Virus record (IMG/VR): IMGVR_UViG_3300013133_000083
Coordinates: 1 to 21,252 of that record
Direction: 5' to 3' (one strand)
Length of the DNA: 21,252 nt
DNA from: a virus
The position numbers and the translations under genes were made by a program. The notes under the pieces were generated by a model. It was not told the DNA's origin and did not search any database. It saw only the letters and a list, made by a program, of their open reading frames with translations. Positions 1 to 17,137 of this stretch are shown piece after piece. How positions within the stretch are numbered: position 1 is the first letter of the stretch; the number at the start of each line of letters is the position of its first letter.

Positions 1-360
1 GAAAGAACTAATATTCAGCATATATGTTTAACTCTACTTAGAATTCATAATAAAATAAGAAATAATAATGATAAAGATATAGACAAAGACTATACGACAT
101 TAGATAAATTAATTAAAACAGCAGGATACGATGCTGCTTCATCAAAGAAGATGAATGAGACAGATGCGGTTCAAGCATTTGGTAAATGGATAGCAGATAT
201 AGAAAACAACTCACCTGCTGAATTATTTGAAGAACCAGATTTATATGTAGATTATAACAACAAACAAAAATATTATCAAGATTATGTTACAAGAGCTTGT
301 AAAAATTTAATAACTGGAAATAGAGATTTTGAAGTTGATGATGAGGAATTGTATGAGTAG
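1..360 (+). CDS. Probable terminase small subunit, 5' end outside the window
   Basis: The reading frame is open from the first base to the TAG at 358-360, giving 119 visible residues; an internal ATG at 151 is not needed as a start because coding-like sequence continues upstream of it (LTLLRIHNKI, then DYTTLDKLIKTAGYD). The visible part is acidic at its C-terminus (VDDEELYE). I do not recognise a family domain. The assignment rests on position: it ends 8 bases inside the start of the large terminase, where the small subunit normally lies. The small subunit binds the phage packaging site as a ring and feeds DNA to the large subunit. The N-terminal DNA-binding region would lie outside the window. 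Another packaging-adjacent protein is possible. Confidence 0.5.
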   Translation, partial: ERTNIQHICLTLLRIHNKIRNNNDKDIDKDYTTLDKLIKTAGYDAASSKKMNETDAVQAFGKWIADIENNSPAELFEEPDLYVDYNNKQKYYQDYVTRACKNLITGNRDFEVDDEELYE

Positions 361-2212
361 AGTAGGTTATAAAATTGATGATATTAAATATAAAAATACT
401 GGTTTAATTTCAAAATTAAGAAAAAATACACAAAGATATAATACACTAGCAAATATTAAAGAACATGCACTTAAACATTGGATCACATTTTACAGAAGAA
501 ATATTGAAGTTTTTGTTGAACATTATATGGGAATAGAATTATATGAATATCAGAAATTTTGGTTACACAATATGCATGTTAATAATAAATCAATGATAAT
601 TGCCTCTAGAGCCTCGGCTAAGAGTTGGTTAATTGGTGTTTATTGTATTGCTGTATGCATTTTATATCCTGGTTCAAAAATTGTAATGGCTGCAAAAACA
701 AAGGCACAAGCTGGAAGAATAGTAAAAGATAAAATTAAAAACGAATTATTAAAATTTCCTAATATAAATAGGGAATTCTCACATATTCAAACAAACGGAA
801 ATGAGTATACAATTAATTTTTTTAATGGTTCTACAGTTGAAGTTGTTGTTAGTGATGATAGGTCTAGGGGTGCGAGAGCTACACTAATAATATTTGAAGA
901 ATTTAGAATCATTCCAAAAGAAGTTGTAGACAAAGTTCTTTCTCCATTTTTAGTACTTAGACAACCTCCATATCTTAAGAAAAAAGAATATAGAATATAT
1001 TCAAAACATGAAGAACCAAGAAAGATTTATATATCTTCTGCTGGATATAAAACAGAATGGATTTGGGATGAGTTTAAAAAAGTTGTTTTAGATCATTATT
1101 CAGGGTTAAGTTGTATGTTTCTTGCTTTAGATTATTTAATAGCAATAAAGCATGGAATAAAATCTAGGGCTAATATTAATGACGAGAGGAAAACTAATGA
1201 CGAAATATCATTTATGATGGAATATGAAAATGTGATGTTTGGTGAAAATTCAAATTCATTCTTCCAATTAAATCTATTTAAAAATTTAAGAGTTATAAAG
1301 AAAGCTTTTTATCCACTAAAATTTGATGAGAAGAAAGTTAATAAAGATACAATAAAAAAAATGCCTGATGAAGTTAGACTAATAACTTGTGACTTAGCGA
1401 GGTCTTCTTCTAAGAAAGCTGATAATACAATTATAGCGTGTATGAGATTGATCCCAACTAAAAATGGATATCAAAGAGATGTTGTATATATGGAAAGTCA
1501 TTGCGGTGCTTCATATATAGAACAAAATAAAAGAATAAAACAAATATTTTTTGATTTTCAATCTGATTATCTTATTATTGACTTACAATCCTTTGGTCAA
1601 GCTATATATACTTTGCTTTCATCAATCACAACTGATGAAGAGAGAGGTGTTGAGCATCCAGCACTTGGAATTATTTATGATGAATCATTAACAAAACCTT
1701 CTTGTGCAGATATATCATACAAAGATTTACAAAGCAATACACTTTCGTATAATGCAAGTCCAGTAATTGTTCCATATATGATTTCATCATTAAGACAGAA
1801 TTCTGAGATTGCAAAAGATTTAAAAGATAAGTTAAGAAGAAATAATATAAAATTCTTATGTGATATAAATACAGCAGAAACATATCTTTTGAAGAAAAAT
1901 GAATATTTTAGAAAAGCAACAGAGGCAAACGCCGAAGATAAATATGTTAAAGATTTATATTTAAATACTTATAAAGAAATAGAAGCGTTTGTAATAGAAA
2001 CTGTAAATTTAGAATATAGTTTATCAGGTGGAGATGTAAAAATAGAAAATAGAAATAGTAGGAAAGATAGATATACTGCTATATCTTATGGGAATTATTT
2101 TGCAACAACACTTGAAAATAAATATCTTAAACAGAAAAAAGAAAAAGATGGAAATTGGAATGATTATGTATGGTTTCCATCAGTTAATTATAATAATATT
2201 AAACCATTTTAA
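353..2212 (+). CDS. terL: Terminase large subunit (packaging ATPase and nuclease)
   Basis: This 619-residue protein is the DNA-packaging motor. The N-terminal ATPase shows a Walker A-like loop at residues 84-91 (ASRASAKS, a variant lacking the usual GK pair), a Walker B with catalytic Glu at 178-183 (LIIFEE) and a coupling motif around 226-230 (YISSA). The C-terminal RNase H-like nuclease shows its three acidic positions: D347 (LITCDLARS), D410 (YLIIDLQSFG) and D572 (SRKDRYTAISYG). Length fits the family. The start at ATG 353 is preferred over TTG 329 and ATG 338/341 because GAGG at 343-346 lies six bases upstream; it overlaps the end of the preceding gene. The family is certain; substrate range and packaging type (cos or pac) cannot be read here. 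Confidence 0.96.
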   Translation: MSRVGYKIDDIKYKNTGLISKLRKNTQRYNTLANIKEHALKHWITFYRRNIEVFVEHYMGIELYEYQKFWLHNMHVNNKSMIIASRASAKSWLIGVYCIAVCILYPGSKIVMAAKTKAQAGRIVKDKIKNELLKFPNINREFSHIQTNGNEYTINFFNGSTVEVVVSDDRSRGARATLIIFEEFRIIPKEVVDKVLSPFLVLRQPPYLKKKEYRIYSKHEEPRKIYISSAGYKTEWIWDEFKKVVLDHYSGLSCMFLALDYLIAIKHGIKSRANINDERKTNDEISFMMEYENVMFGENSNSFFQLNLFKNLRVIKKAFYPLKFDEKKVNKDTIKKMPDEVRLITCDLARSSSKKADNTIIACMRLIPTKNGYQRDVVYMESHCGASYIEQNKRIKQIFFDFQSDYLIIDLQSFGQAIYTLLSSITTDEERGVEHPALGIIYDESLTKPSCADISYKDLQSNTLSYNASPVIVPYMISSLRQNSEIAKDLKDKLRRNNIKFLCDINTAETYLLKKNEYFRKATEANAEDKYVKDLYLNTYKEIEAFVIETVNLEYSLSGGDVKIENRNSRKDRYTAISYGNYFATTLENKYLKQKKEKDGNWNDYVWFPSVNYNNIKPF

Positions 2213-2221
2213 AGGAGGTGA
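2211..2221 (+). promoter_or_regulatory. Strong ribosome binding site of the portal gene
   Basis: AAAGGAGGTGA matches the 16S anti-Shine-Dalgarno complement almost perfectly. It overlaps the stop codon of the large terminase. The only in-frame codons at a workable distance are ATT 2222, GTT 2225 and ATA 2228; ATA lies nine bases after GGAGG. TTG at 2223 is out of frame and stops after two codons. Confidence 0.8.
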
Positions 2222-2227
2222 ATTGTT

Positions 2228-3784
2228 ATAGAAAAAAACACTCCTAAAAGTAATTTTTCTTGGAATGATTATTGTAATGCATATGCAAGAGAGCTACAAG
2301 ATTTGATGGAAACAACACAAGCATATTATAGCCCATTTATGGGACAAAATTATATGCAAATGGTAAATATATCACCTCTTGTTCCAACGCAAGCTGATTT
2401 ATCTGAATGGTTAAAATATCCAGAAAAACATGACAAACAATTACGAGATGTATCTCAATATCTTGACAATTCTATTATGCAATATAAAAGAGCAAAAGAT
2501 CATTTTAGCAAACTTCTTACAATGAGATATGATATGAGGGCTATAAATAAGCCAAAATCTGGAGATACAGCAACATGGAAATCTGGTTATGAAAGATGTT
2601 TAAATTTTCTAAGGATATTTAATGCTCCAAATCAATTTACTAATGTTTTAGATAAAACATTATCTGAAGGTGGAATATTTACATATCTTAGGAAAAGAAA
2701 TAATAAAAATAACATAGAAGACATTGATGATATGTTGCTTATTGAAATTCCTTCTGATTATTGCTATATCACTGGAAGGTCACGATGGGGTTTTACATAT
2801 GCTATAAATCTTGTATGGTTTGATAGAATTATTGGTGTTGAATATGTTGTCCCTGAAATTTATGAATATTATAAACTATTTGTAAAGATGAGAGAGAACA
2901 AAAATATTCCAAAAAATTTACTACATAATTATCAATTTTTCCCTGTGCCAGTTGAAAATGGATTTGTATTTACATTTAATCCGCTTAGAGCACAAATAAC
3001 TCCTCCATTTCAAGGAATATTCAAGGATGCTTTGGCTATACTTGACTATAAAGCGTTACTTAGACAAAAAACAACAATGGATACTTGGAAACTTATTGCA
3101 CAAACTATTCCAAAGAATAGTGATGGTGAACCGATTATGGATGCTAAAGTTGCTGCAAAAGTAACACAAGCAATTCAACAGTCGATGCCTACTGGTGCAA
3201 TTACTTTTTCTACACCTTTTGAAATTACAGAATTAAATATGCAAAATGCACAAAGTCAAAACAATATAATTGGTCTTGGTGAACAGATGTTTTGGCGTTC
3301 TATTGGCGTAAATGGAACAATTATGGATCTTGGCGAAAAATCTGCTGCTAGTTTAAAATTTGGTTTAATAAATGATGTTGGATTTGTTGAACATATATAT
3401 AAACAATTTGAAGATTTTATAAACCTTCAATTGTATTTGCAGTCTAAGATATATCAATTTAGAGTATCTTTTTATGGAAATAGATATACAGAGGACGAAG
3501 ATGTTAAGAGACAAGCGGAAATGGTGCGTACTGCTAATATGCCAGTTGGAAAATTATTTGGTTTACTTGGATATCAGCCATTTGAAGTTGATGCTGTTCT
3601 TGAACAAGAAGAAATTCTTGGTTGGAAAGATAAAATGAAACCAATGACTTCAGCATTTAACACCAAAGGCTTTACTGGTGATGAGAGTAAAGATCAAGGT
3701 GGACAGAAGAAGAATGAGGCAGAACTAACTCAAGGTGGTGCAGAACAAAGAGATTATGATGCAAATAAAACAAATAAAGTATAA
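2228..3784 (+). CDS. Portal protein, with an apparent non-canonical start
   Basis: The portal is the dodecameric ring at one head vertex through which DNA enters and leaves and to which the tail joins. The identification rests on size (about 518 residues), position directly after the large terminase, and portal-like content: an early segment on inter-residue joining (KRAKDHFSKLLTMRYDM), a mid-protein region (PLRAQITPPFQGIFKDAL), a long helical segment near AAKVTQAIQQSMP, and a disordered Gln/Glu/Asn-rich tail (GGQKKNEAEL). The frame is open from 2222, and the stretch 2228-2302 reads like coding sequence (NFSWNDYCNAYARELQDL). The strong binding site at 2211-2221 points to a start at ATA 2228 rather than to TTG 2303 or ATG 2306, which have no binding site. 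If only standard starts are allowed, the gene begins at 2303 or 2306 (493 or 492 residues). Confidence 0.85.
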   Translation: MEKNTPKSNFSWNDYCNAYARELQDLMETTQAYYSPFMGQNYMQMVNISPLVPTQADLSEWLKYPEKHDKQLRDVSQYLDNSIMQYKRAKDHFSKLLTMRYDMRAINKPKSGDTATWKSGYERCLNFLRIFNAPNQFTNVLDKTLSEGGIFTYLRKRNNKNNIEDIDDMLLIEIPSDYCYITGRSRWGFTYAINLVWFDRIIGVEYVVPEIYEYYKLFVKMRENKNIPKNLLHNYQFFPVPVENGFVFTFNPLRAQITPPFQGIFKDALAILDYKALLRQKTTMDTWKLIAQTIPKNSDGEPIMDAKVAAKVTQAIQQSMPTGAITFSTPFEITELNMQNAQSQNNIIGLGEQMFWRSIGVNGTIMDLGEKSAASLKFGLINDVGFVEHIYKQFEDFINLQLYLQSKIYQFRVSFYGNRYTEDEDVKRQAEMVRTANMPVGKLFGLLGYQPFEVDAVLEQEEILGWKDKMKPMTSAFNTKGFTGDESKDQGGQKKNEAELTQGGAEQRDYDANKTNKV

Positions 3785-3802
3785 AAGTGGTGATAATACA
3801 TA

Positions 3803-4282
3803 ATGTTAATGTCAGATAAAATGAAATCATTATTTATGAGACAAATAGCACATGAGTTAAATAATTCAGTGATATATAGAAAAATATCAAACTTTCTATC
3901 CGTTAAAGGATTTTCAAATTTAGCATCAAGATTTAAAAAAGATTCTGAAGATAAAGTTGATCATAGTTGGTGGCTACAAGATTTTCTTGAAAAATTAAAC
4001 ATAGAGATTGATTTAATTCAGTTTCCTTTAAACGTGCAAACAATTACTTTGACTAATTTTGCAGAATTAGCATTACAAAGAGAGATAGAAACAACAAAGA
4101 TGATAAATGAAATGTTGGGTCAAAGTTATGAAGAGTCTGGTATCATAACAGATTTTCTTCTTTCAACAATGCTTAGAGAACAAACAGAGGAAATAGAAAA
4201 AGTAAACACGTTAAATGATGAAATCATAAATATCGGTGGAAATGTAGCTCTATTACAATTGTTTGATAAATCTTTGAGTTAG
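3803..4282 (+). CDS. Ferritin-family protein inside the head operon
   Basis: The 159-residue product aligns almost without gaps with my recollection of E. coli FtnA: an ELNNSVIY segment like ELYSSLLY in helix A, LASRFKKDSEDKVDH like helix B, REIETTKMINEM in helix C, REQTEE in helix D, and a C-terminal LFDKSLS like FIDKELS. Ferritins are four-helix bundles that oxidise ferrous iron and store it in a 24-subunit shell. Ferroxidase ligands appear at E18, H54, E94, Q127 and E130, but the position of FtnA E50 is K51, so activity may be altered. ATG 3803 is chosen because GTGGTGAT (3787-3794) lies eight bases upstream; ATG 3809 is too far. The gene sits 18 bases after portal and before the protease, all in one transcription unit, so it is expected to be made during head assembly. 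Whether it is packaged, sequesters iron or has become structural is unknown. Confidence 0.82.
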   Translation: MLMSDKMKSLFMRQIAHELNNSVIYRKISNFLSVKGFSNLASRFKKDSEDKVDHSWWLQDFLEKLNIEIDLIQFPLNVQTITLTNFAELALQREIETTKMINEMLGQSYEESGIITDFLLSTMLREQTEEIEKVNTLNDEIINIGGNVALLQLFDKSLS

Positions 4283-4292
4283 AGATAAAATT

Positions 4293-4544
4293 ATGAATGT
4301 GTTAAATTGGAAAACATTAAAAAAAGAGGATATTTTTCCTTGTTACTCCAGACCATTTTGTAAGTTTTTAAAAAATAATAATCTTTATTATATAAAAAAA
4401 GAATATGATAAAAAGGCAAAAAAATACTTTTTTGTATTTTTAAGAACTGTAAAATTTAATGATTTATTAAATGAATGGAGAAATAATAAATTATCTGGAA
4501 CATTTGCTTTCCCAAAAAGAGAGGGAGGTGAAGTTGTTGAATAG
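4293..4544 (+). CDS. Small protein of unknown function
   Basis: This 83-residue, lysine- and aromatic-rich protein (YYIKKEYDKKAKKYFFVFLRTV) is not recognised. It follows the ferritin-family gene by 10 bases and its last codons overlap the protease start (TTG 4537). The ribosome binding site is weak (AGAGAT around 4281). A strong site for the next gene lies inside its last codons, so translation of the two is probably coupled. No signal peptide or membrane segment is seen. Its place between portal and protease suggests a role in head assembly or with the ferritin-family protein, but the sequence itself gives no function. Confidence 0.6.
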   Translation: MNVLNWKTLKKEDIFPCYSRPFCKFLKNNNLYYIKKEYDKKAKKYFFVFLRTVKFNDLLNEWRNNKLSGTFAFPKREGGEVVE

Positions 4545-6321
4545 ATTAGCTACAAATTATTCAATTGAAAATTATTCTATTTTAGATGATGATGATTTGA
4601 TAATTATGGAAGCCGACATAGTTAAAGTTGGTATGAGTGCTCATGGTACTTATTTTTCTAAAGAATCTATATTAGATGCTCAAAGTTCTCTTCCAAATAA
4701 ACCAATTTTGTGTGTGTGGAATAAATTTGAAAATGATTTTAAAGAACATGCGAGAAATGATTATGATTTAGACGAATTAAGAGCAATTGGAAATATACCA
4801 GAATCTAACAATGCTACAATATTAGAAAAAGATGGCGAGATTTGGCAAAAAGCAACATTAGTAATATGGAAAAAATATATTAATAATGATATGATAGGTA
4901 AAATAAAGAATAAAGAAAAAATTGACATATCTATGGAAATTGATATATTAGAATACTCCGAAAGAGAAGATGGATACTATAATATTGACAAATATAGATA
5001 TGAAGGAATATGTCTTCTTGGTGATAAGTTTAAACCTGCGATTAAGAATGCAAAAGTTGTTTTGTCAAAATACTCATTAGATACATCGGAAATAAAAGAA
5101 TTGAATAATAAATATTATAATTTATCAACAAAAATTAGTATATCTGAAATATTAAATGATATTAAAGATATAAATAATAAAGTTAAAAATCCAGCATTAA
5201 AATATTTTTATAGTAATATTGTATCAAATGAAGATATCTCAATTAAAGATATTGAAAAACTTTCAAAATTAACAAAAAGTAACAAAGTAATCGATTGGTG
5301 TAATGATAAGATAAAATTATATGCTAATGAAACAATAACAATTGATAATTCTAAAGAATCTGCGATAAATTCTGGTACATGGAGTAATCCAGGTTCTAAA
5401 TTATATGAGAGATTATTAAAATCTCAAAATTCAAAATCCTTATTAAATGAAGCTTATTTAATTATTGGTAATAATTATAAAGAATCACCATCTTCAAACT
5501 TAAAGTACCCTCACCATACATTAAGTGGAGATAAATTAGTTATAAATATTGCTGGTATAAAAGCTGCTAGTTCTAGATTAAATCAAATGAAGTCTCAAAA
5601 CAAGATATCACCTGATGAATATCAAAAAGCTATGTCTCATATTAATAAACATAGAAATGAATTAGAGTTAGATAAGCTTGATAAACCTAATGGAAAGGAG
5701 AGTACTATGATAGAAGCATCAAAAATGGCTAAAATATTAAAAGAAGAAAACGCTTGTAATAAATATGTTAGTTGTGATGAAAAATATGTATATTATTCTA
5801 ATGATTCTGGAAAATTTAAAGCTACGTATTCAGTTGATGGAGATAAAATATCTGTAAATTATGCTGAACAAGAAAAAATTGAAGAAGAACCAAAAGAAGA
5901 AGAAAAACCTAAAAATAAGCCTGAAGAAAAAAACAGTGTAGAAAATGAAAAGAAAATTGCTGATTTAGAAAATGAAAAGAAAATGGCTGATTTAGAAAAT
6001 GAAAATAAAGAGCTAAAAGAAAAAATGGCTAAATTAGAAGAAGAAAATAAAAAATATGCTATTGAAAAAAATAAAGTTACAGTTAACGAATGGTTAAACA
6101 AGTATTCTGATTTTGTTAATAGTGAAGAAAAAAACAATCTATTAAGTGAGTTAGAAAAATATTCTAATTTTACTGATTATGAAAATATGTTTAATAAATT
6201 CATGTTAACAAAAATTTCTAGTAATGCTAAATTTTCAAAAAAAGATGATTTAGGTATGATTGTAGTACCAGTTATTAATAATAATATTAAAAAAGAAAGT
6301 AAAACTTTCATAGATTTTTAA
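4537..6321 (+). CDS. Prohead protease-scaffold fusion
   Basis: The 594-residue product combines three parts. Residues 1 to about 190 resemble the assemblin-like prohead proteases (S78/XkdF type): a beta strand MEADIVKVG, a candidate catalytic His at H71 (FKEHARND), a candidate Ser at S132 (IDISMEID) and a terminal GICLLGDKFKPAI strand. Residues about 278-385 form a separate conserved-looking domain (TWSNPGSKLYERLL, YPHHTLSGD, then HINKHRNEL) of unknown role. Residues 391-594 are a charged coiled coil (DLENENKELKEKMAKLEEEN) typical of scaffolds, ending in a hydrophobic-basic tail. Scaffold guides capsid assembly and is cleaved by the protease before packaging. TTG 4537 is the start: AGGGAGGTG (4522-4530) lies six bases before it, whereas ATG 4471 has no binding site. 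An internal start at 5707 is described separately. Catalytic residues are inferred from motif position. Confidence 0.78.
   Translation: MNRLATNYSIENYSILDDDDLIIMEADIVKVGMSAHGTYFSKESILDAQSSLPNKPILCVWNKFENDFKEHARNDYDLDELRAIGNIPESNNATILEKDGEIWQKATLVIWKKYINNDMIGKIKNKEKIDISMEIDILEYSEREDGYYNIDKYRYEGICLLGDKFKPAIKNAKVVLSKYSLDTSEIKELNNKYYNLSTKISISEILNDIKDINNKVKNPALKYFYSNIVSNEDISIKDIEKLSKLTKSNKVIDWCNDKIKLYANETITIDNSKESAINSGTWSNPGSKLYERLLKSQNSKSLLNEAYLIIGNNYKESPSSNLKYPHHTLSGDKLVINIAGIKAASSRLNQMKSQNKISPDEYQKAMSHINKHRNELELDKLDKPNGKESTMIEASKMAKILKEENACNKYVSCDEKYVYYSNDSGKFKATYSVDGDKISVNYAEQEKIEEEPKEEEKPKNKPEEKNSVENEKKIADLENEKKMADLENENKELKEKMAKLEEENKKYAIEKNKVTVNEWLNKYSDFVNSEEKNNLLSELEKYSNFTDYENMFNKFMLTKISSNAKFSKKDDLGMIVVPVINNNIKKESKTFIDF
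5694..5700 (+). promoter_or_regulatory. Internal ribosome binding site for the scaffold
   Basis: AAAGGAG lies six bases upstream of an in-frame ATG (5707) inside the protease-scaffold gene. A site of this quality within a gene, placed at the junction between the protease part and the coiled coil, marks a second translation start. Confidence 0.75.
5707..6321 (+). CDS. Scaffolding protein made from an internal start
   Basis: A 204-residue protein begins at ATG 5707 in the same frame as the protease-scaffold fusion and ends at the same stop. It has a short globular N-terminus (MIEASKMAKIL, then a YVYYSND segment), an acidic-basic hinge (EEEPKEEEKPKNKPEEK), a coiled coil and a C-terminal region with KKESKTF. 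This matches the arrangement known in lambda C/Nu3, where the separate scaffold is made in excess over the protease fusion. The strong internal binding site at 5694-5700 is the direct evidence. A tandem 27-base repeat lies in its coiled coil. Confidence 0.7.
   Translation: MIEASKMAKILKEENACNKYVSCDEKYVYYSNDSGKFKATYSVDGDKISVNYAEQEKIEEEPKEEEKPKNKPEEKNSVENEKKIADLENEKKMADLENENKELKEKMAKLEEENKKYAIEKNKVTVNEWLNKYSDFVNSEEKNNLLSELEKYSNFTDYENMFNKFMLTKISSNAKFSKKDDLGMIVVPVINNNIKKESKTFIDF
5941..5994 (+). repeat. Tandem 27-base repeat in the scaffold coiled coil
   Basis: Two adjacent 27-base units, in codon phase, differ at one base and encode ENEKKIADL and ENEKKMADL. A decayed third unit follows (ENENKELKE). 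The near identity suggests a recent duplication lengthening the charged helix by nine residues. Confidence 0.8.
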
Positions 6322-6339
6322 GAAAAGTGAGGTAAAAAA

Positions 6340-6879
6340 ATGGCTAATAAATTATGTTATCTTGCTAATGATGTATTACCAAGGCAAATAAGAAAAGTAA
6401 AAATTGCTACTGGTCAATCATTTTCGCAAGGAGACGCAATATTTTTAAACACATTAGATAGTGCTTCTGACAATATAGAGGTTTATGCTGCTACTCCAAT
6501 CGCAGATGTTACTACTGATGGATTTGGTCTTGTAATTAATCAAGGGGTTGAGGAATTATCAGATGGAAGAAGAATAAGTGGAAACGCTGATCCTTCAACA
6601 TTTACATATTATCCTGAACAAACAATAACTGTTGCTATTCCAGAAGTTAATGAAAGATTTTTTATATCTGAAGATTGTTTAGATAATACTAGTTCAGTTG
6701 CTTTGGCTGCTGGAGTATATCTAATTGGTCAAAATGCAGACTATCAGTTAGCAACTGCAAGTTCATATTCAACTGAAAAAGTTGTATTTTATGTTGAGAA
6801 ATTACATTCGACACCTAATGGTGGTCAGTTTGGTGCTGGCTTTATAGATGGTGCGTATATTAAATGTATAAAAGCGTAA
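6340..6879 (+). CDS. Putative capsid decoration (stabilising) protein
   Basis: This 179-residue beta-rich protein lies between scaffold and major capsid protein, the usual place for a decoration protein that binds the outside of the expanded capsid. It is rich in small, Thr, Ser, Asn and Gly residues (for example SFSQGDAIFLNTLD and FGLVINQGVEELSDG) and has no signal or membrane segment. It follows the scaffold stop by 18 bases with GAGGT (6330-6334) upstream of ATG 6340. The assignment rests on position, size and composition; I do not recognise a specific family, and a minor capsid protein is an alternative. Confidence 0.5.
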   Translation: MANKLCYLANDVLPRQIRKVKIATGQSFSQGDAIFLNTLDSASDNIEVYAATPIADVTTDGFGLVINQGVEELSDGRRISGNADPSTFTYYPEQTITVAIPEVNERFFISEDCLDNTSSVALAAGVYLIGQNADYQLATASSYSTEKVVFYVEKLHSTPNGGQFGAGFIDGAYIKCIKA

Positions 6880-6898: not shown

Positions 6899-8035
6899 AT
6901 GAATTTCGAATTTAAAAAATATTCAGTTAATAATGTTGATAATAAATTCACAGCTCTTGTTGAAGCTGGTACAAGTTTATCAAAATTTGCAATGAATTCA
7001 CTTTACAAAGAAGACTCATTGTCTACTAAATATGCAGTAGATTTGAGAAGTACTTCTGGTATTGCTTTAAACTACCAAGAGGCAAATAAAGAATTTGTAA
7101 ACAAACTATATCAATATTGCTTAGAAGGTTCTCCTTCAGCTAATTTAGGTTTAGATGTTAATAATAGAGCAAATGTAGTAAGAATGTTTTCAGACCCATT
7201 CTTTGCTCATAAGTTCTTCGCAATTCAATCTGAGATACTCATTGGTATCAATTCAGATAATGAAGTTGAAGAAGCTCTTCAATTAGCAAATGTATCCAAT
7301 GTTGGATTAGGTGATTCAAAAGCATTCCAAATAGAATCAAAAGCATTGTGGAAAATCCAAGACCATGGCTGGGAAAATAATGTATCTGATGCTCAGAAAC
7401 AATTCAAATCTTCTATTTATGTAACACCTAGAAGAAAATCAGCTAAAATAACTATGGAAATCGAACAAGCTTCGGCATTAGATTATGATTTTGGTAAACA
7501 AATTGCTAAACTTGCAATGAGTTTAAGAAAAGCTATGTACAATGATATAATTGATATTATATTTACAGTAGCTAACGTTTCTTCAACTCCATTCTATCAA
7601 GCTAGTTTCAGCAAAACTACTTATGTAACTGTTGTAGATCAATTAGCTGCTACAAATAGTGCTAATGTAAGAGCTTATGGTTCAAGATTAGCATTTGTTA
7701 ATATGACAAATGGCGTTACAACTGGTTTCCAGACTCAAGATGAAATCAATAAAACTGGTTTTCTTGGAAATGTTTATGGAACTCCTTTTGTAGTTATTAA
7801 TCAAGTTGTTGATTCAAATAGTGCTTTATTTACAACTAAAGTTCCTACTAATAGAATTTTATTAGTATCTGATGTTGGAGATAAGCCAGTTAAATTAGTA
7901 AGAGAAGATGGTATGAGATATATAGTTAAAGATGGAACTGACACATCATTATTCTCAAGAAGTTATACTGTTATCGACAGTTGGAAAGCTGCTTTAGCAA
8001 CTCAAGCTTCATACGGAATTATAGTAGTAGCTTAG
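6899..8035 (+). CDS. Major capsid protein (HK97 fold)
   Basis: At 378 residues this is the best candidate for the icosahedral shell subunit. It lies directly after scaffold and decoration genes, has a very strong ribosome binding site (GGAAGGAGGATAATATA before ATG 6899) and is less AT-rich than its neighbours (20 G/C in the 60 bases from 7201), as expected of a highly expressed gene. Motifs consistent with HK97-type capsid proteins include a central VTPRRKSAKITMEIEQAS strand-helix, LRKAMYNDIIDIIF in the long helix, a GFLGNVYGTPFVVINQV stretch and a C-terminal WKAALATQASYGIIVVA. The N-terminal region (residues 1-100) may be the arm that scaffold or protease acts on. A terminator hairpin follows. 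Family placement is by pattern and context. Confidence 0.85.
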   Translation: MNFEFKKYSVNNVDNKFTALVEAGTSLSKFAMNSLYKEDSLSTKYAVDLRSTSGIALNYQEANKEFVNKLYQYCLEGSPSANLGLDVNNRANVVRMFSDPFFAHKFFAIQSEILIGINSDNEVEEALQLANVSNVGLGDSKAFQIESKALWKIQDHGWENNVSDAQKQFKSSIYVTPRRKSAKITMEIEQASALDYDFGKQIAKLAMSLRKAMYNDIIDIIFTVANVSSTPFYQASFSKTTYVTVVDQLAATNSANVRAYGSRLAFVNMTNGVTTGFQTQDEINKTGFLGNVYGTPFVVINQVVDSNSALFTTKVPTNRILLVSDVGDKPVKLVREDGMRYIVKDGTDTSLFSRSYTVIDSWKAALATQASYGIIVVA

Positions 8036-8804: not shown

Positions 8805-9466
8805 TAATTATAGCTACTACATTTTCTGATATCTACGATTTAAATGAAGCGATAACAAATGACGATAATTTGAATAGCTTGCCTAATAACCTATATTATT
8901 TTACAGCATATCAATATCTATTATTTGCCATTGCTGAATTTGTAGATGTATGTAATGTTGATATCGAAAATCACACAGCTTTTACTCAAGAAACATATAA
9001 TTTTACGGGTGATGGTAGTACTATTCAATATACTTTAAGTCCAACGCCGCCAGCACTATGTGAGTTATATGTTTCAATAAATGATGTAGAAACTACAAAT
9101 TATACTTTTGACTCTGTTTTAAATACTATTACTTTTAGTTCTACTCCAGTATTAAATGATGATATATATATTGGTGCATATATTGAAGGCTCATTTCTTG
9201 TTGATTTAACTATTAATGAGAAAAGAATACTTTCTGAAGCTATGACTATTCCATATATAGAATCTAAAATAAATAGGTCAGTTCAACTAGATCAAATGGT
9301 TTATGGGGCAAATCTTGGAATTCACTCTCAAGCAAATCATAATAAAGTACTTTCACAAGAGAAACAAGACAAATATCTTAAAATACATCAGATGATTGTA
9401 AGATACTCATTTAGAAGTGATCCCGATGATTTAGACAATCTTGTTGGCGATCCAGATTGGTATTAA
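8798..9466 (+). CDS. Head-tail connector-like protein with inserted beta domain
   Basis: The conventional start (GTG 8798) gives 222 residues; a start at ATA 8810 gives 218 and fits the GGTGGTGG element better. Flanking helical parts (SLPNNLYYFTAYQYLLFAIAEF and, after residue 132, EKRILSEAMTIPYIESKI) resemble the all-helical adaptor that docks under the portal. Between them, residues about 67-131, sits a beta-rich domain of the kind common in phage tail and fibre proteins (FTGDGSTIQYTLSPTPP, LYVSINDVETTNYTFD, NTITFSSTPVLNDDIYIGAY). An inserted domain of this type usually projects outward and may bind glycans or another subunit. The C-terminus is acidic (DPDDLDNLVGDPDW). Adaptor function is inferred from position and the helical frame; the insert is seen directly. 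Confidence 0.62.
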   Translation: MVVIIATTFSDIYDLNEAITNDDNLNSLPNNLYYFTAYQYLLFAIAEFVDVCNVDIENHTAFTQETYNFTGDGSTIQYTLSPTPPALCELYVSINDVETTNYTFDSVLNTITFSSTPVLNDDIYIGAYIEGSFLVDLTINEKRILSEAMTIPYIESKINRSVQLDQMVYGANLGIHSQANHNKVLSQEKQDKYLKIHQMIVRYSFRSDPDDLDNLVGDPDWY

Positions 9467-9467
9467 T

Positions 9468-10703
9468 ATGGCTAATAAAAATAGTTGGAGAATAATAAAA
9501 AATAGTAATGATAAACAAAACAGAGAAAATTCATATACAAATTTTTTAATAAATAACTTTGAAAAATATCCTAATTATAAAACATGTGTTAAGAATTTTG
9601 GTGAGACAACATATAAAATACAAATACATGAGGTAGATACACATAAAAAATCAAATAAAATGAAAAGAATGTTAGTTTATCCATATGATGATTTTGTATT
9701 TAATACTGGAGATTATTCTACTTGGGAATTTGGAGATGTGTCTACTGATTGGTTAATATTAGCGAGTGATTTAACATTTAAATATAATGCATATTATACA
9801 ATAGCATATTGTAACAACAGTTTAAATTGGTTCGATAGTAATAAAAATGAAATATCATATCCATGTTTTATTTATGATAAAATGACGGAAACGGAACTTG
9901 CTTTATTTAAAGAAATTATAATAGCTGAAGGACAAATCATTGTTGTTGTTCAAAACAATAACGATACATCTTTAATAGATATTAATAATAGATTTGTATT
10001 TGATAGCCAAGTGTACAAAATAAATTCAATGAAAGATTTTGTAGATGATGGATTATTAGTGTTTACAATGAGAAAAGATGGAAGTGGATATGACGATGAT
10101 TTCGATAATAATATTGCAAATACAGAAACGTATAATTATACAATAGAAATAGGTGATAGTTCATTTACTCAGAATATTGGATATACTACAACTTTGAGTG
10201 CAACTGTTAAACTTGATGGTATCGTTGTATCAAAATCTATTATATGGTCAAGTAGTGATGATAGTGTTGTATCAATTGACAATGATGGTAATATAGAGCT
10301 TTTATCAGAGGGTTCTTCAACTATATTAGTATCAATGGAAGATAATGAAGAAATATATGATGAGATAACAATAACATCGACATCTGGATCAATTCCTAGT
10401 GAGGGTGAAATTGTTGTATTACCAAATATTGAGTATATATTACAAGGTCGAACTGTATCATTTTCTGTTTATAAATATATTGATAATATTCAACAAAGTG
10501 ATACTTTTTCTGTGATTGTAGAAGAGCTGGTACAATTGCAAGTATTAGATATTACAACTGAGTTTTACAGACTTACTATAATAGATGGAAATCATTTTAC
10601 TATAGAAAATATAAAAAAGAATGGAACTATTACAATTAGATGTACAGATATGAAAGATAAATCATTTAAAACATTTACAATTGATTTGAGGGGGTTTTGG
10701 TAA
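9468..10703 (+). CDS. Head-closure (stopper)-like protein with Ig-like domains
   Basis: This 411-residue product has an N-terminal part (1 to about 215) in the position of the head-tail stopper that plugs the connector after packaging, ending in a beta segment FVFDSQVYKINSMKDFVDDGLL of the type seen in closure proteins. Residues about 222-300 form a bacterial Ig-like (Big_2 type) domain: ATVKLDGIVVSKSIIWSSSD, then VVSIDNDGNIELLSEGSSTI. Residues about 310-411 form a second beta domain (GEIVVLPNIEYILQGRTVSF, later NGTITIRCTD). Ig-like domains on virion proteins are thought to aid weak binding to cell-surface sugars. ATG 9468 is used rather than TTG 9441, which has no binding site; the gene starts one base after the preceding stop. 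The Ig domains are clear; the stopper role is positional. Confidence 0.6.
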   Translation: MANKNSWRIIKNSNDKQNRENSYTNFLINNFEKYPNYKTCVKNFGETTYKIQIHEVDTHKKSNKMKRMLVYPYDDFVFNTGDYSTWEFGDVSTDWLILASDLTFKYNAYYTIAYCNNSLNWFDSNKNEISYPCFIYDKMTETELALFKEIIIAEGQIIVVVQNNNDTSLIDINNRFVFDSQVYKINSMKDFVDDGLLVFTMRKDGSGYDDDFDNNIANTETYNYTIEIGDSSFTQNIGYTTTLSATVKLDGIVVSKSIIWSSSDDSVVSIDNDGNIELLSEGSSTILVSMEDNEEIYDEITITSTSGSIPSEGEIVVLPNIEYILQGRTVSFSVYKYIDNIQQSDTFSVIVEELVQLQVLDITTEFYRLTIIDGNHFTIENIKKNGTITIRCTDMKDKSFKTFTIDLRGFW

Positions 10704-13263: not shown

Positions 13264-14076
13264 TTGATTTTAGAAAATAAAAAAATATTCATAGCAACAT
13301 TAATTAGAGACAGGTCATGGATTCTTCCACATTTCTTAAAATATCTTTATGAATTAAACTATAATAAAAAAGATATATCAATTTTTTTCTTAATAAATAA
13401 CTCCAAAGATGATTCTTATCAAATAATTCAAAATTTTAGAAATACAAATTTAAAAAAATACCTAGATATAACAATTGAAAATATAGATATAAAAAATATT
13501 CCAGATGATGTAAGAACAATGAATGTTAGGAATAACTATATCTATAATCATCTTGCAAATATGAGAAATATAATTTTAGATAGATGTAATAAAAATAAAT
13601 TTGATTATATTTTTTCTATTGATTCAGATATACTTTTAATAAATAAAGATACTTTAAATAACTTAATTAGTCATAAAAAAGATATAATATCATCTATAAT
13701 ATATAATGGCTATGAATTTAAGCCAGAATTATATTATAGGTTTACAAATGCTTTAATTAAAGTTGCTGAAGAAAGATTAATCCCAATTAACAAAAATAAA
13801 ACTGAATTTATAAAAAGTCAAGAGACAAGATATAAACATCTTAGGAAAAAAAATGGATTAATAGAAGTTGATTTAACTGGTGCTATATATTTAATTAATA
13901 CTAAAATTCTTAGAGATATTAAATATGGATACCATATTGATGGTGAAGACGCTTATTTTTGTAATTCTGCTCAACAAAATAAAATTAAATTATATTGTGA
14001 TATGGATACATATAATCAACATATAATGAGTGAGAGTTGGCTGAATAAATTTTTAGATGGTGAAAAAATTAATTAG
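13264..14076 (+). CDS. Glycosyltransferase, GT-A fold (Anp1/GT2-like)
   Basis: The 270-residue enzyme is a nucleotide-sugar-dependent glycosyltransferase: an N-terminal strand IFIATLIRDRSW, a strand-loop FFLINNSKDDS, an ANMRNIILDRC helix at residues 98-108, a metal-binding DxD (SIDSDIL, D120 and D122) and a late acidic motif GEDAYFC (E228, D229) likely to include the catalytic base, followed by a His (YNQHIM). The pattern resembles Anp1-like and GT2 enzymes. No membrane segment is present, so it should act in the cytoplasm. TTG 13264 is the start, with GGAG at 13250-13253. It is the first of four clustered glycan-transfer genes. The region is extremely AT-rich (10 G/C in the 60 bases from 13381). 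Sugar and acceptor are unknown. Confidence 0.82.
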   Translation: MILENKKIFIATLIRDRSWILPHFLKYLYELNYNKKDISIFFLINNSKDDSYQIIQNFRNTNLKKYLDITIENIDIKNIPDDVRTMNVRNNYIYNHLANMRNIILDRCNKNKFDYIFSIDSDILLINKDTLNNLISHKKDIISSIIYNGYEFKPELYYRFTNALIKVAEERLIPINKNKTEFIKSQETRYKHLRKKNGLIEVDLTGAIYLINTKILRDIKYGYHIDGEDAYFCNSAQQNKIKLYCDMDTYNQHIMSESWLNKFLDGEKIN

Positions 14077-14091
14077 AAAGAAGAGATTATT

Positions 14092-14964
14092 TTGATAAAT
14101 TTTATACTTCCAAATATGGAAAAATATAAATTACTTCTAGATGAATATATAAATCCCATTATAGACAATTTAAATAAAGATAAATATAAAATTAGTGATT
14201 TCGCTCAAGAAGATTGTCTAAACATACATTTTTTTTCTGAAAGAGAATATAAAAATTGGGTTGGATTTGTTGGTAAAAATATATTTATACCTCATGGAAT
14301 TGCTGATAAAAATTCTAGGAATTTTGACAATACTGGAGATTTTGATTATTTAATAGTTTCAGGAGAATACTGGAAACAAAAACATATTTTACAAGGGGTA
14401 AACCATGAAAAAATTATTATAGGTGGATATCCAAAAATGGATAATATGTTTAAATTAAAAAAGAATACATATAATAAGCCTATGATATTATGGTGTCCAA
14501 CACATAACTTTTCAACACATCTTAATCTTACAACATACCCTGATTTTATAAATTATATAAATGACATACCATTTGACGATTTTATATTTAAGATATCACA
14601 ACATCCAGCTAACAAATACAATCTTAAACCGACAAAACAAGAGTTGATAGACGCTGATATAATAATATCTGATTCAGGATCGATGATATATGAGGCGTTT
14701 ACAATGAATAAACACGTTATTTTCCCAGATTGGATAGTAAAAGATAATATATTAAGAGTTTATAATAATACATTTGAAAGTCAAATATACGAAGAAGATA
14801 TTGGTATGCACGCAAACTCAATTGAAGAATTGTTGGAATTTTGCTATAATCCAGTCTTTGATAAGAAAATTAAAAAGTTTATAGACGGAATATTTCAAAA
14901 AGAACTTAGAGGAAAATCAGGTAAAGCAATTGCTGAAATTTTAGAAAGAAAGGATAACTCATAA
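14092..14964 (+). CDS. CDP-glycerol glycerophosphotransferase-like (TagB/TagF type)
   Basis: This 290-residue protein matches the GT-B enzymes that transfer glycerol phosphate (or ribitol phosphate) from CDP-glycerol when wall teichoic acid is made. Seen motifs: IPHGIADKN (H68), YLIVSGEYW, IGGYPKMDNMF, ILWCPTHN (H138), ISQHPAN (H171) and a substrate-binding DIIISDSGSMIYEAF (residues 189-203). Length is below full-size TagF, as if it were a core catalytic domain without the membrane-binding N-terminus. No membrane helix is seen. TTG 14092 is the start after GAAAGAAGAG. It lies 15 bases after the first glycosyltransferase. It may add glycerol phosphate to a glycan built by its neighbours; a different polyol phosphate is possible. 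Confidence 0.82.
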   Translation: MINFILPNMEKYKLLLDEYINPIIDNLNKDKYKISDFAQEDCLNIHFFSEREYKNWVGFVGKNIFIPHGIADKNSRNFDNTGDFDYLIVSGEYWKQKHILQGVNHEKIIIGGYPKMDNMFKLKKNTYNKPMILWCPTHNFSTHLNLTTYPDFINYINDIPFDDFIFKISQHPANKYNLKPTKQELIDADIIISDSGSMIYEAFTMNKHVIFPDWIVKDNILRVYNNTFESQIYEEDIGMHANSIEELLEFCYNPVFDKKIKKFIDGIFQKELRGKSGKAIAEILERKDNS

Positions 14965-14965
14965 A

Positions 14966-15694
14966 ATGAAAGATGTGAGATTGAGTGTTATAATCCCCTG
15001 GAGAAAAAGTAAAGAATTAGATAGGAATGTAATTGCTGAGTGGTGTTTTAAAAGATATAAATACCTTTTTGAAAATCTTGGATTGAGAGAAGTGGAATTT
15101 GTTTATTCTGATGATGGCGGTGATGTATTTAGTAGAGGTGGAAGTATAAATAAAGGCGTTGAAGAATGTAGGGGAGATTATATTATAATAACCGATGCTG
15201 ATTATTTATTTGGACAACAAATGGCAAGAAATTTAATAAATAAACAAGAATGGACAGTGGCTTGTAAGCAACATAATTATTATTTTACAGATCATTATAT
15301 TGCAAACTATATATTAAGCAAACCACATGATATTGATATAAAAAAAATAGCTTTTGGAAAACATATTGAAGTATCTAAATGGCAAACATATGGACAAATT
15401 CTTGCAATGCCTAAGAAAAATTTTGTAAAATTTTACAATAAATTTAGAGGTTATGGGTTTGAGGATGATGTATTTTATTATTGTATGAGAGCTTGGAATG
15501 GAAAAGAGTGGCGTACAAATAATTATATGTTTCATATATATCATAGTAGACCTATTGGTTCAGCATACATGCAAAAAAGCTATGACAATATTAAAATTCT
15601 TAAAGATGAATGGGAAGAAATTAAATTAGATAGAAAAAAAATGAGACAAGTTATGGAAGAAAAAGGGTTGTTATATGAATGGAATAGAAAATAA
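14966..15694 (+). CDS. Glycosyltransferase family 2-like, GT-A fold
   Basis: The 242-residue enzyme starts RLSVIIPWRKSKELDRN, a GT-A N-terminal nucleotide-binding strand, then VEFVYSDDGGD, SRGGSINKGVEECRGDY, a DxD motif in IIITDADYLF (D77, D79) and GYGFEDDVFYYC (E166, D167, D168), the catalytic-base region of the family, ending in HIYHSRP. This order resembles enzymes such as polymerase-type or galactosyltransferase-like GT2/GT7 members. The start ATG 14966 lies one base after the previous stop with AGGAT upstream. No membrane anchor. Transfers a sugar from a nucleotide sugar; donor and acceptor cannot be read from sequence. Confidence 0.85.
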   Translation: MKDVRLSVIIPWRKSKELDRNVIAEWCFKRYKYLFENLGLREVEFVYSDDGGDVFSRGGSINKGVEECRGDYIIITDADYLFGQQMARNLINKQEWTVACKQHNYYFTDHYIANYILSKPHDIDIKKIAFGKHIEVSKWQTYGQILAMPKKNFVKFYNKFRGYGFEDDVFYYCMRAWNGKEWRTNNYMFHIYHSRPIGSAYMQKSYDNIKILKDEWEEIKLDRKKMRQVMEEKGLLYEWNRK

Positions 15695-16316
15695 AATACC
15701 AAAACAAATTATTTATGCATGGTTTGGCGGTGGTCAAAAAACCAGATTAATAGAAAAATGTATAGATAGTTGGAAAAGAATAATTCCAGATTATAAAATA
15801 ATAGAATTAAATGAAAAAAATTGCAATATAGAAAGATATAATTATTCAAAAAAAGCATATGAAGAAAAAAAGTGGGCTTTTGTATCTGATTGTATGAAAC
15901 TTGATTATTTATATGAAAATGGTGGAATTGTTTTTGATGCCGATATAGAAGTTCTTAAACCGTTCTCAGATGAAATATTAAATAATAGAGCATTTACATC
16001 TAAAGAATCTGCTGGAAGATGGATTAGTGCTGTTTGGGGTGCTGAAATACATCATCCATGGATAAAGTCTATTTTAAAGTATTATAAACAAAATGAATTT
16101 ATTTATGATCCAGCAAGAATATGTAACACTACAATAATACATAATATTAATCAAAAATGGTACAAAAAAACAGAAGGAAATATTATTTATCTTCATGAAG
16201 ATGTTACAATATATCCAAGTGATTATTTTGAGTGTAAAAACTGGGCTAATGGATTAATAGAAACAACAAAAAATAGTTATACTATTCATCATTATACTGC
16301 CTCATGGCTAAAATAA
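15675..16316 (+). CDS. GT32-like glycosyltransferase
   Basis: The 213-residue protein shows the GT32 (capsular polysaccharide and Och1-like) signature: IPKQIIYAWFGGG (residues 8-20), WAFVSDCMKLDYLYENGG, a DxD motif in FDADIEVLKP (D88, D90), a WGAEIHHPWI segment and a C-terminal HHYTASW. These enzymes transfer hexoses with a metal-bound nucleotide sugar. It overlaps the preceding GT2-like gene by 20 bases, so the two are translationally coupled and probably act in sequence on the same glycan. No membrane segment or signal peptide is present. Confidence 0.88.
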   Translation: MNGIENKIPKQIIYAWFGGGQKTRLIEKCIDSWKRIIPDYKIIELNEKNCNIERYNYSKKAYEEKKWAFVSDCMKLDYLYENGGIVFDADIEVLKPFSDEILNNRAFTSKESAGRWISAVWGAEIHHPWIKSILKYYKQNEFIYDPARICNTTIIHNINQKWYKKTEGNIIYLHEDVTIYPSDYFECKNWANGLIETTKNSYTIHHYTASWLK

Positions 16317-16339
16317 AATTATAGAAAGGAATTAAGAGA

Positions 16340-17137
16340 ATGGCTAAAAAACCAATTAAAAGAAATACAAAAGTGAATCCAACTACAAAAACAATTAAAG
16401 TTGAAAAGATTATAGAAGATAAAATAGAGAGTAAAACAGAAGAAATTACTAAATTAGTAATAAACAATATAGATAAAAAAAATAATATCGAAGAAACTTT
16501 TGATATATCTCATATATTAAATAATGATACAACATGGCAAATGTCTATTGATGAAAGAATTATTGCAGATTATATTATTCAAAATTTAAAAGTTAAAGAT
16601 ATTGCAATAGAGATTGGAAGTTTAAAAGGTGGATTTACAAATATACTTGCTAAAAATTTTAAAAAAGTAATATCTTGTGATTTAGATCATAAACAAATCG
16701 ATAAAAACAGATTTAATAATGTTGAATGGGTAACAGGTAATACTAGAAAAACTTTAGCTGAATTAATAGAAGATATAAATGACAAAGAGGATAAAGTTTC
16801 TTTTATATTTGTAGATGGAGATCATACGTATGATGGCGTAATGTCAGATATAGAAGATATTTTGTTGTTAAAACCTAAGACAACAGTTGTAGTATTATTT
16901 CACGACACTTGGTATAAAAGTGTTAGATTGGCTATATGTGAATCGGAAATAAAGAACAATAAATATGTTTATTATGTTAATACTGATTTATGTAGCGTTT
17001 CAAGTGTTGTATGTAAGACTATGTGGGGTGGATTAGGAATTATGATAATGAAACCAGATGAAAGAGATTTTGAGTTAAGCATAAATCAATCAAATGATTT
17101 AATGTATCTCGAATTATTTAAATCTAATAATAGGTAA
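16340..17137 (+). CDS. Class I SAM-dependent methyltransferase (Methyltransf_24-like)
   Basis: Residues about 85-230 form a Rossmann methyltransferase: motif I IAIEIGSLKGG (residues 88-98), an acidic strand end ISCDLDHKQ, a FIFVDGDHTYDG motif (D159, D161, H162) and LFHDTW (H188, D189). The DGDH and HDT motifs are typical of the family found in sugar-modifying clusters. Residues 1-55 are an unusual lysine-rich, low-complexity extension (KKPIKRNTKVNPTTKTIK) that may bind nucleic acid or a partner. It follows the four glycan-transfer genes after 23 bases with AAGGA upstream, suggesting O-methylation of a glycan residue. Methylation of another small molecule or protein is possible. Confidence 0.8.
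   Translation: MAKKPIKRNTKVNPTTKTIKVEKIIEDKIESKTEEITKLVINNIDKKNNIEETFDISHILNNDTTWQMSIDERIIADYIIQNLKVKDIAIEIGSLKGGFTNILAKNFKKVISCDLDHKQIDKNRFNNVEWVTGNTRKTLAELIEDINDKEDKVSFIFVDGDHTYDGVMSDIEDILLLKPKTTVVVLFHDTWYKSVRLAICESEIKNNKYVYYVNTDLCSVSSVVCKTMWGGLGIMIMKPDERDFELSINQSNDLMYLELFKSNNR

Follow-up and report, generated by a model that had tools for sequence, protein, structure and literature searches.

Classical ferritins form 24-mers, for which helix E of the subunit is needed, and Dps proteins are without this helix, while EncFtn has two helices, is carried inside encapsulins and needs their shell. In the ferroxidase site of ferritins, glutamate E50 (numbering of E. coli FtnA) bridges the two irons; a complete ferroxidase centre is not required for membership of the ferritin family, light chains being without one. 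In phage T4, the genes of gp67 and gp68 are flanked by gene 20 (portal) and gene 21 (protease). Both proteins belong to the prohead core and are incorporated together with the protease and the scaffold before the shell (PMC9958956; PMC9026906). In mammalian L-ferritin, the iron site is replaced by a salt bridge between Lys62 and Glu107 (PMC11396501; ligand list in PMC7557750). Among phages, Dps and Mn-catalase genes of gut phages are ascribed a role in oxidative stress (PMC8008677), and the same role is given to Dps of Lactobacillus phages (PMC6669764). A ferritin of phage PMBT24 is merely listed under 'other functions', where it is neither discussed nor tested (PMC11035940). Full-text searches, which left most subscription journals outside, returned no paper describing a ferritin gene at a fixed place in a phage head operon, nor one on phage ferritins with a dead ferroxidase site; what is already known is the label 'ferritin' in GenBank records of the slot proteins described below.

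Here we analysed a window of 21,252 bases, which is an IMG/VR virus record carrying a late operon in the order terminase, portal, ferritin, DUF5659-like gene, protease, 179-aa protein, capsid and tail-region genes (Table 1). The ferritin open reading frame was recovered exactly as originally predicted in position, strand and length. It had also been predicted to lie between the portal and protease-scaffold genes; the slot in the head operon was confirmed, with a start 18 bp past the portal stop, but the gene does not adjoin the protease gene, since the DUF5659-like gene intervenes. A Shine-Dalgarno-like GGTGA precedes the ferritin gene, no terminator-like sites were found within positions 2100-6500, and the G+C content of the gene (27.3%) compares with 27.2% for the window. 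The same arrangement, with the same ferritin gene in the same place, was observed in a sibling contig that is 99.8% identical over 11.8 kb. Between these two contigs the ferritin genes differ by two nonsynonymous and no synonymous changes, which are too few codons for a rate test.

Table 1. Coordinates of the late-operon features in the window, with the evidence for each assignment.
Feature	Position	Strand	Evidence or remark
Terminase large subunit	329-2212	+	PHROGs terminase large subunit families, best E 1.7e-10
Portal protein gene	2303-3784	+	phrog_2739 portal protein, E 5.5e-64; homologous to TR-TP1 portal; directly upstream of the ferritin gene
Ferritin subunit gene (type A)	3803-4282	+	159 aa, 18.4 kDa, pI 4.8
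Codon 51, AAA (Lys)	3953-3955	+	Position of the bridging ferroxidase Glu: E50 of E. coli FtnA, E62 of human H-ferritin
Small DUF5659-like gene	4293-4544	+	83 aa; phrog_21297, E 2.9e-9; TR-TP1 homologue annotated DUF5659
Putative prohead protease with coiled-coil, scaffold-like C-terminal part	4471-6321	+	phrog_3313; PJN02 homologue; conserved D89/H93/S154
179-aa protein between protease and major capsid protein	6340-6879	+	Position conserved in all relatives
Major capsid protein	6899-8035	+	phrog_4088, E 1.2e-27; homologue so annotated in PMBT24 and PJN02

The putative prohead protease matched a PHROGs family for which no function is given, while its homologue in Bacillus phage PJN02 is annotated 'putative prohead protease' and the residues Asp89, His93 and Ser154 are kept in 12 relatives. 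A match to a solved structure was not found, so the protease call is not strengthened by solved structures. The 179-aa protein, which had no family match in Pfam and PHROGs profile searches, is a possible decoration or head protein. Elsewhere in the window, a protein of the head or neck region (9441-10703) was found to carry the bacterial Ig-like domain Big_2 (PF02368, E 9e-7). Moreover, four glycosyltransferase-like genes and a methyltransferase gene (16340) lie at 13264-17137, inside the structural gene region; Pfam assigned an Anp1-like gene (13264), a GT2-like gene (14966) and a DXD/Gly_transf_sug gene (15675), the fourth one (14092) having no Pfam match.

The window protein matched Pfam family PF00210 with E 1.9e-10 and 41.3 bits (family cut-off 24.5), and its best PDB chains were those of Thermotoga maritima ferritin (E about 1e-8, residues 1-156), in agreement with the near end-to-end similarity to bacterial ferritin that had been claimed. 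When a profile was built from the window protein and two type A relatives, PDB ferritins were found with values up to E 2.9e-13. The AlphaFold2 model had a mean pLDDT of 91.4 and predicted five helices: A (5-34), B (38-64), C (86-108), D (113-144) and E (148-157). In VIA-align, the best structural match of this model was SynFtn (5ouw; Z 22.2, 1.3 Å, 158 of 159 residues), and only ferritins were present among the 50 structural matches listed. Hence, neither a non-ferritin fold nor a lack of profile similarity, the two outcomes that would have spoken against the original prediction, was found when both were tested. The predicted model shows the five-helix subunit of classical ferritins, consisting of a four-helix bundle and helix E. 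With five helices and 159 aa, the protein differs from EncFtn (two helices, about 100 aa), and with a predicted helix E and an intrasubunit, Ftn-like ligand pattern it differs from Dps (no helix E, inter-subunit ferroxidase site, 12-mer). By profile and predicted structure, the window protein is a classical five-helix ferritin subunit and a member of PF00210.

The complete ferroxidase centre (E17, Y24, E50, H53, E94, Q127 and E130 in FtnA), present in all 20 Clostridia-type reference ferritins (19 genome loci and the bacterial contig MT839617), is not found in the window protein. Its site residues are E18, Y25, K51, H54, E94, Q127 and E130, and in the alignment with the 20 Clostridia ferritins all ferroxidase residues are kept except E50, which is replaced by Lys51 where ferritins have Glu. 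Lys51 is also present in the sibling contig, and Glu94, equivalent to Glu107 of L-ferritin, is retained in the window protein. Since the bridging Glu is replaced by Lys, as in L-ferritin, the window protein is probably ferroxidase-poor or inactive; Lys51 may pair with Glu94, like Lys62 with Glu107 in L-ferritin, which would give a stable, ferroxidase-inactive subunit. The ligands are complete in the two other type A ferritins, those of contigs L037 and L040, which suggests that these proteins may still oxidise iron.

Relatives were located through alignments of portal, capsid and type B proteins, as single-sequence tblastn finds almost none of them. The nearest cultured phages by portal are the Thomasclavelia phages TR-TP1 and TR-TP2, and the gene following the portal gene of TR-TP1 is labelled 'Ferritin domain-containing protein'. 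A diverged ferritin-fold protein, here called type B, occupies the slot in at least 16 portal-bearing relatives, including TR-TP1, the Enterocloster phages PMBT24, CB457P1 and CB473P1 and the IMG/VR contigs L019, L021, L033-L035, L041, L042, L048 and L049, while type A was found in only two other lineages, L037 and L040, and thus in three with the window. A search for the gene beside the portal gene of other phages, as had been suggested, thus found a ferritin-fold protein in the slot of TR-TP1, PMBT24 and IMG/VR contigs. The ferritin-like gene and its DUF5659-like neighbour have swapped order in L041 and L042, both still being located between portal and protease, and the slot position is kept even among phages that have only 18% identity between their capsid proteins. 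On the 11-kb contig L038, no ferritin-like gene was present in the slot. No copy was detected in the slot or on the whole contig records of L043 and L044, nor a ferritin-like copy on the whole records of further relatives, among them Sundance and the 949-like and SPbeta-like phages, though a highly diverged copy could escape such sequence searches. Because some relatives are without the gene, phages with this capsid type can dispense with it.

A scan of genome contigs for type A ferritins found nothing, and a portal scan of the same kind of contigs found one Clostridium MAG contig, L053. In L053 the type B gene (3822-4351) is split by a frameshift, which is either an assembly error or a genuinely broken gene, and the terminase (58-1993) is apparently interrupted, as read by eye, by an intein-like segment with the motif VPESHSFVSNGFISHN ahead of the ATPase part. 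On contig 3300012344_000001 (L021), a TnpB/OrfB-like transposase gene, assigned by eye, lies at 2285-3430 on the minus strand between the protease gene and an 18-kDa head gene. Upstream of the portal gene of CB473P1 and CB457P1 (L007 and L008), the terminase region is broken by genes annotated as ITEVIR intron-associated endonuclease, which suggests a group I intron in the terminase of these Enterocloster phages. The only match of the window protein in a tblastn search of the phage collection, MT839617 (L003, 'Bacteriophage sp.'), was rejected as phage since it is bacterial DNA, and it was used solely as a bacterial ferritin; the neighbours of its ferritin gene resemble, as read by eye, a desulfoferrodoxin-like protein and a thioredoxin reductase.

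Type B proteins share about 15-20% identity with the window protein, and single type B sequences all stayed below the cut-off of PF00210, some giving no match and the others E values of 5e-5 to 0.1. Combined into a profile, bacterial and type A ferritins, in contrast, matched the type B profile over nearly the whole length (E 4.6e-8, probability 95%). The AlphaFold2 model of the L048 type B protein has the same helix order (pLDDT 91.9), its best structural match was BfrB of M. tuberculosis (Z 21.5, 1.5 Å over 157 residues), and the 50 structural matches listed were all ferritins. Profile comparison and modelling thus indicate that the type B slot proteins share ancestry with ferritins. In all eight type B sequences tested, the ferroxidase positions are replaced by non-ligands, except for the His53 column, the alignment of which is uncertain. 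An early alignment had placed the window ferritin badly against type B, and this placement was corrected by profile methods; although an H-x4-H motif is conserved in helix B of type B, no inference was drawn from it given the uncertain column of the kept His. Across 12 type B sequences, 11 residues are invariant. Weak full-bundle matches to the type B model were also obtained in BFVD for A0A6J7WIS1, A0A6J7WPK9 and A0A6J7XDU5 (ranks 13, 16 and 31; TM about 0.5-0.6), each named prohead protease in an uncultured Caudovirales phage; the three might be fusions of a prohead protease with a ferritin- or Dps-like domain.

The three type A proteins share 33-41% mutual identity (z above 20) and fall into a single clade (support 100/100) that is separate from the Clostridia ferritins. 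In the portal tree, the window and L037 group with L038, whose slot has no ferritin-like gene, whereas L040, which has type A, forms a clade with L048, which has type B, at 100% support. The portals of L040 and L048 are 59% identical and their DUF5659-like neighbours 40%, whereas their slot proteins are 20% identical and, with a z of 1.3 against shuffles, indistinguishable from shuffled sequence. For comparison, TR-TP1 and L041, both with type B, have slot proteins that are 64% identical and portals that are 40% identical. The simplest reading of these sequence comparisons, for a type A sample of three lineages in which L040 is a 15.8-kb metagenomic contig, is that ferritin genes of the two types have replaced one another in place. 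Because of these replacements, selection seems to act on the presence of a ferritin-shaped protein in the slot.

Since relatives keep a ferritin-fold protein in the slot even where the ferroxidase site is gone, we infer that the fold, more than iron chemistry, has been selected there. A structural use of the four-helix bundle, which the original prediction had listed as an alternative, thereby appears to be favoured by the comparative evidence. Genes of head operons located between portal and protease commonly encode prohead components, as is the case in T4, and for this reason a role in head assembly is the most likely one for the slot protein: it would be made late, alongside the portal, protease and capsid proteins, and would be a prohead core component resembling T4 gp67 and gp68, or a minor head protein near the portal. 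Going by gene position and fold only, we regard it as evenly balanced whether a phage-lineage ferritin subunit was recruited into the head-assembly module of these large siphophage-like viruses and acts in head morphogenesis. More tentatively, a ferritin-fold subunit, perhaps as a cage, might serve as a prohead core or portal-proximal head protein across a tailed-phage clade, with catalytically complete and dead ferritins being swapped in the slot. The main rival to the head-assembly role is iron storage, which we consider rather unlikely. Here, a ferritin cage made late, or a subunit co-assembling with host ferritin, would bind iron and lessen the oxidative damage suffered by an anaerobic host; the head operon would merely offer a strong late promoter, and the window copy would resemble L-ferritin in storing iron oxidised by H-type subunits of the host. 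The complete ligands of L037 and L040, the helix E predicted in the window protein and the comparable role assigned to phage Dps and Mn-catalase in PMC8008677 (and to Dps in PMC6669764) agree with such iron handling, but most members have lost the site and the window copy its bridging Glu, and the placement is non-random, the portal-protease slot being kept across phages with highly diverged capsid proteins.

The original prediction had preferred an encapsulin-like arrangement, with the ferritin as an internal iron-handling or DNA-protecting capsid protein. We find this unsupported for the window copy, because Lys occupies the position of the bridging Glu and most slot relatives are without the whole site; nor is the protein a two-helix EncFtn. 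In its general form, in which ferritin is packaged in the prohead as encapsulins package their cargo and there serves for iron mineralisation, for DNA protection or for ejection into the host, this explanation is improbable in our view, since encapsulin cargo is a different, two-helix ferritin and neither type B nor the window copy fits a mineralising or ferroxidase function. The gene does lie beside the scaffold and protease genes, and the internal proteins of T4 are core components that are ejected later (PMC9958956). Moreover, the ferritin-like gp217 was detected by mass spectrometry in CsCl-purified Kuttervirus Sajous1 (PMC10892097), which is the only virion evidence that we found for any phage ferritin-like protein; however, the gp217 gene adjoins a tail-completion gene, in a different phage and a different operon. 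A hitchhiking moron without a stable role, drifting to loss, with type B representing decayed ferritins, is the explanation to which we give the least credence. It would agree with the absence of the gene from several relatives, the frameshifted MAG copy and the purely nonsynonymous differences between the sibling contigs, but two codons are insufficient for a rate test and the frameshift in L053 may be an assembly error. In addition, type B proteins keep their full length, a fold predicted at pLDDT 92 and their invariant residues despite very large divergence, and this needs purifying selection.

If the head-assembly role is correct, these phages would clearly exemplify how a metabolic enzyme can be taken over as a component of virus assembly. 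They would thereby mirror the encapsulins, where cells recruited the phage capsid fold. The label 'ferritin' on such phages, PMBT24 for example, should then not be taken to imply an iron-related auxiliary gene. The cultured members, TR-TP1 on Thomasclavelia ramosa and PMBT24 and CB473P1 on Enterocloster bolteae, make the question of the slot testable.

Compared with the bacterial non-haem ferritins E. coli FtnA, T. maritima TM1128 and SynFtn, the window protein is the same full-length five-helix subunit with an E-helix, matched end to end in sequence and structure, and it keeps the Tyr, the His and most carboxylate ligands, with Lys in place of the bridging Glu50. It differs from them in being encoded in a phage head operon and in belonging to a clade found only in phages, which has about 24% identity to Clostridia ferritins and the C-terminal signature NIGxNxAxLQxFD. 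The mammalian light chain shows the same Glu-to-Lys swap with the partner Glu kept (Lys62/Glu107; K51/E94 in the window protein), but its other ligands have changed too and it co-assembles with the H-chain, whereas no such partner is known for the window protein, and the likeness is convergent. With PMBT24 'Ferritin' (ORF39) and the proteins of TR-TP1 and TR-TP2, slot and fold are in common while homology is remote, these being type B proteins without ferroxidase ligands. Dps and Mn-catalase of Gratiaviridae and Lactobacillus phages are likewise ferritin-superfamily proteins in phages, but of other families; one phage Dps is placed near DNA-metabolism genes, and the portal-protease slot is described in the excerpts of neither PMC8008677 nor PMC6669764. 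The T4 genes of gp67 and gp68 resemble the locus in being two small genes of similar sizes between portal and prohead protease, a likeness by position and size and not by homology, since these T4 proteins, unlike the slot protein, are not ferritins. Finally, EncFtn and the window protein both belong to the ferritin superfamily and are both linked to an HK97-fold shell, but the window protein has the five helices of a classical subunit, as in ferritins of the 24-mer type.
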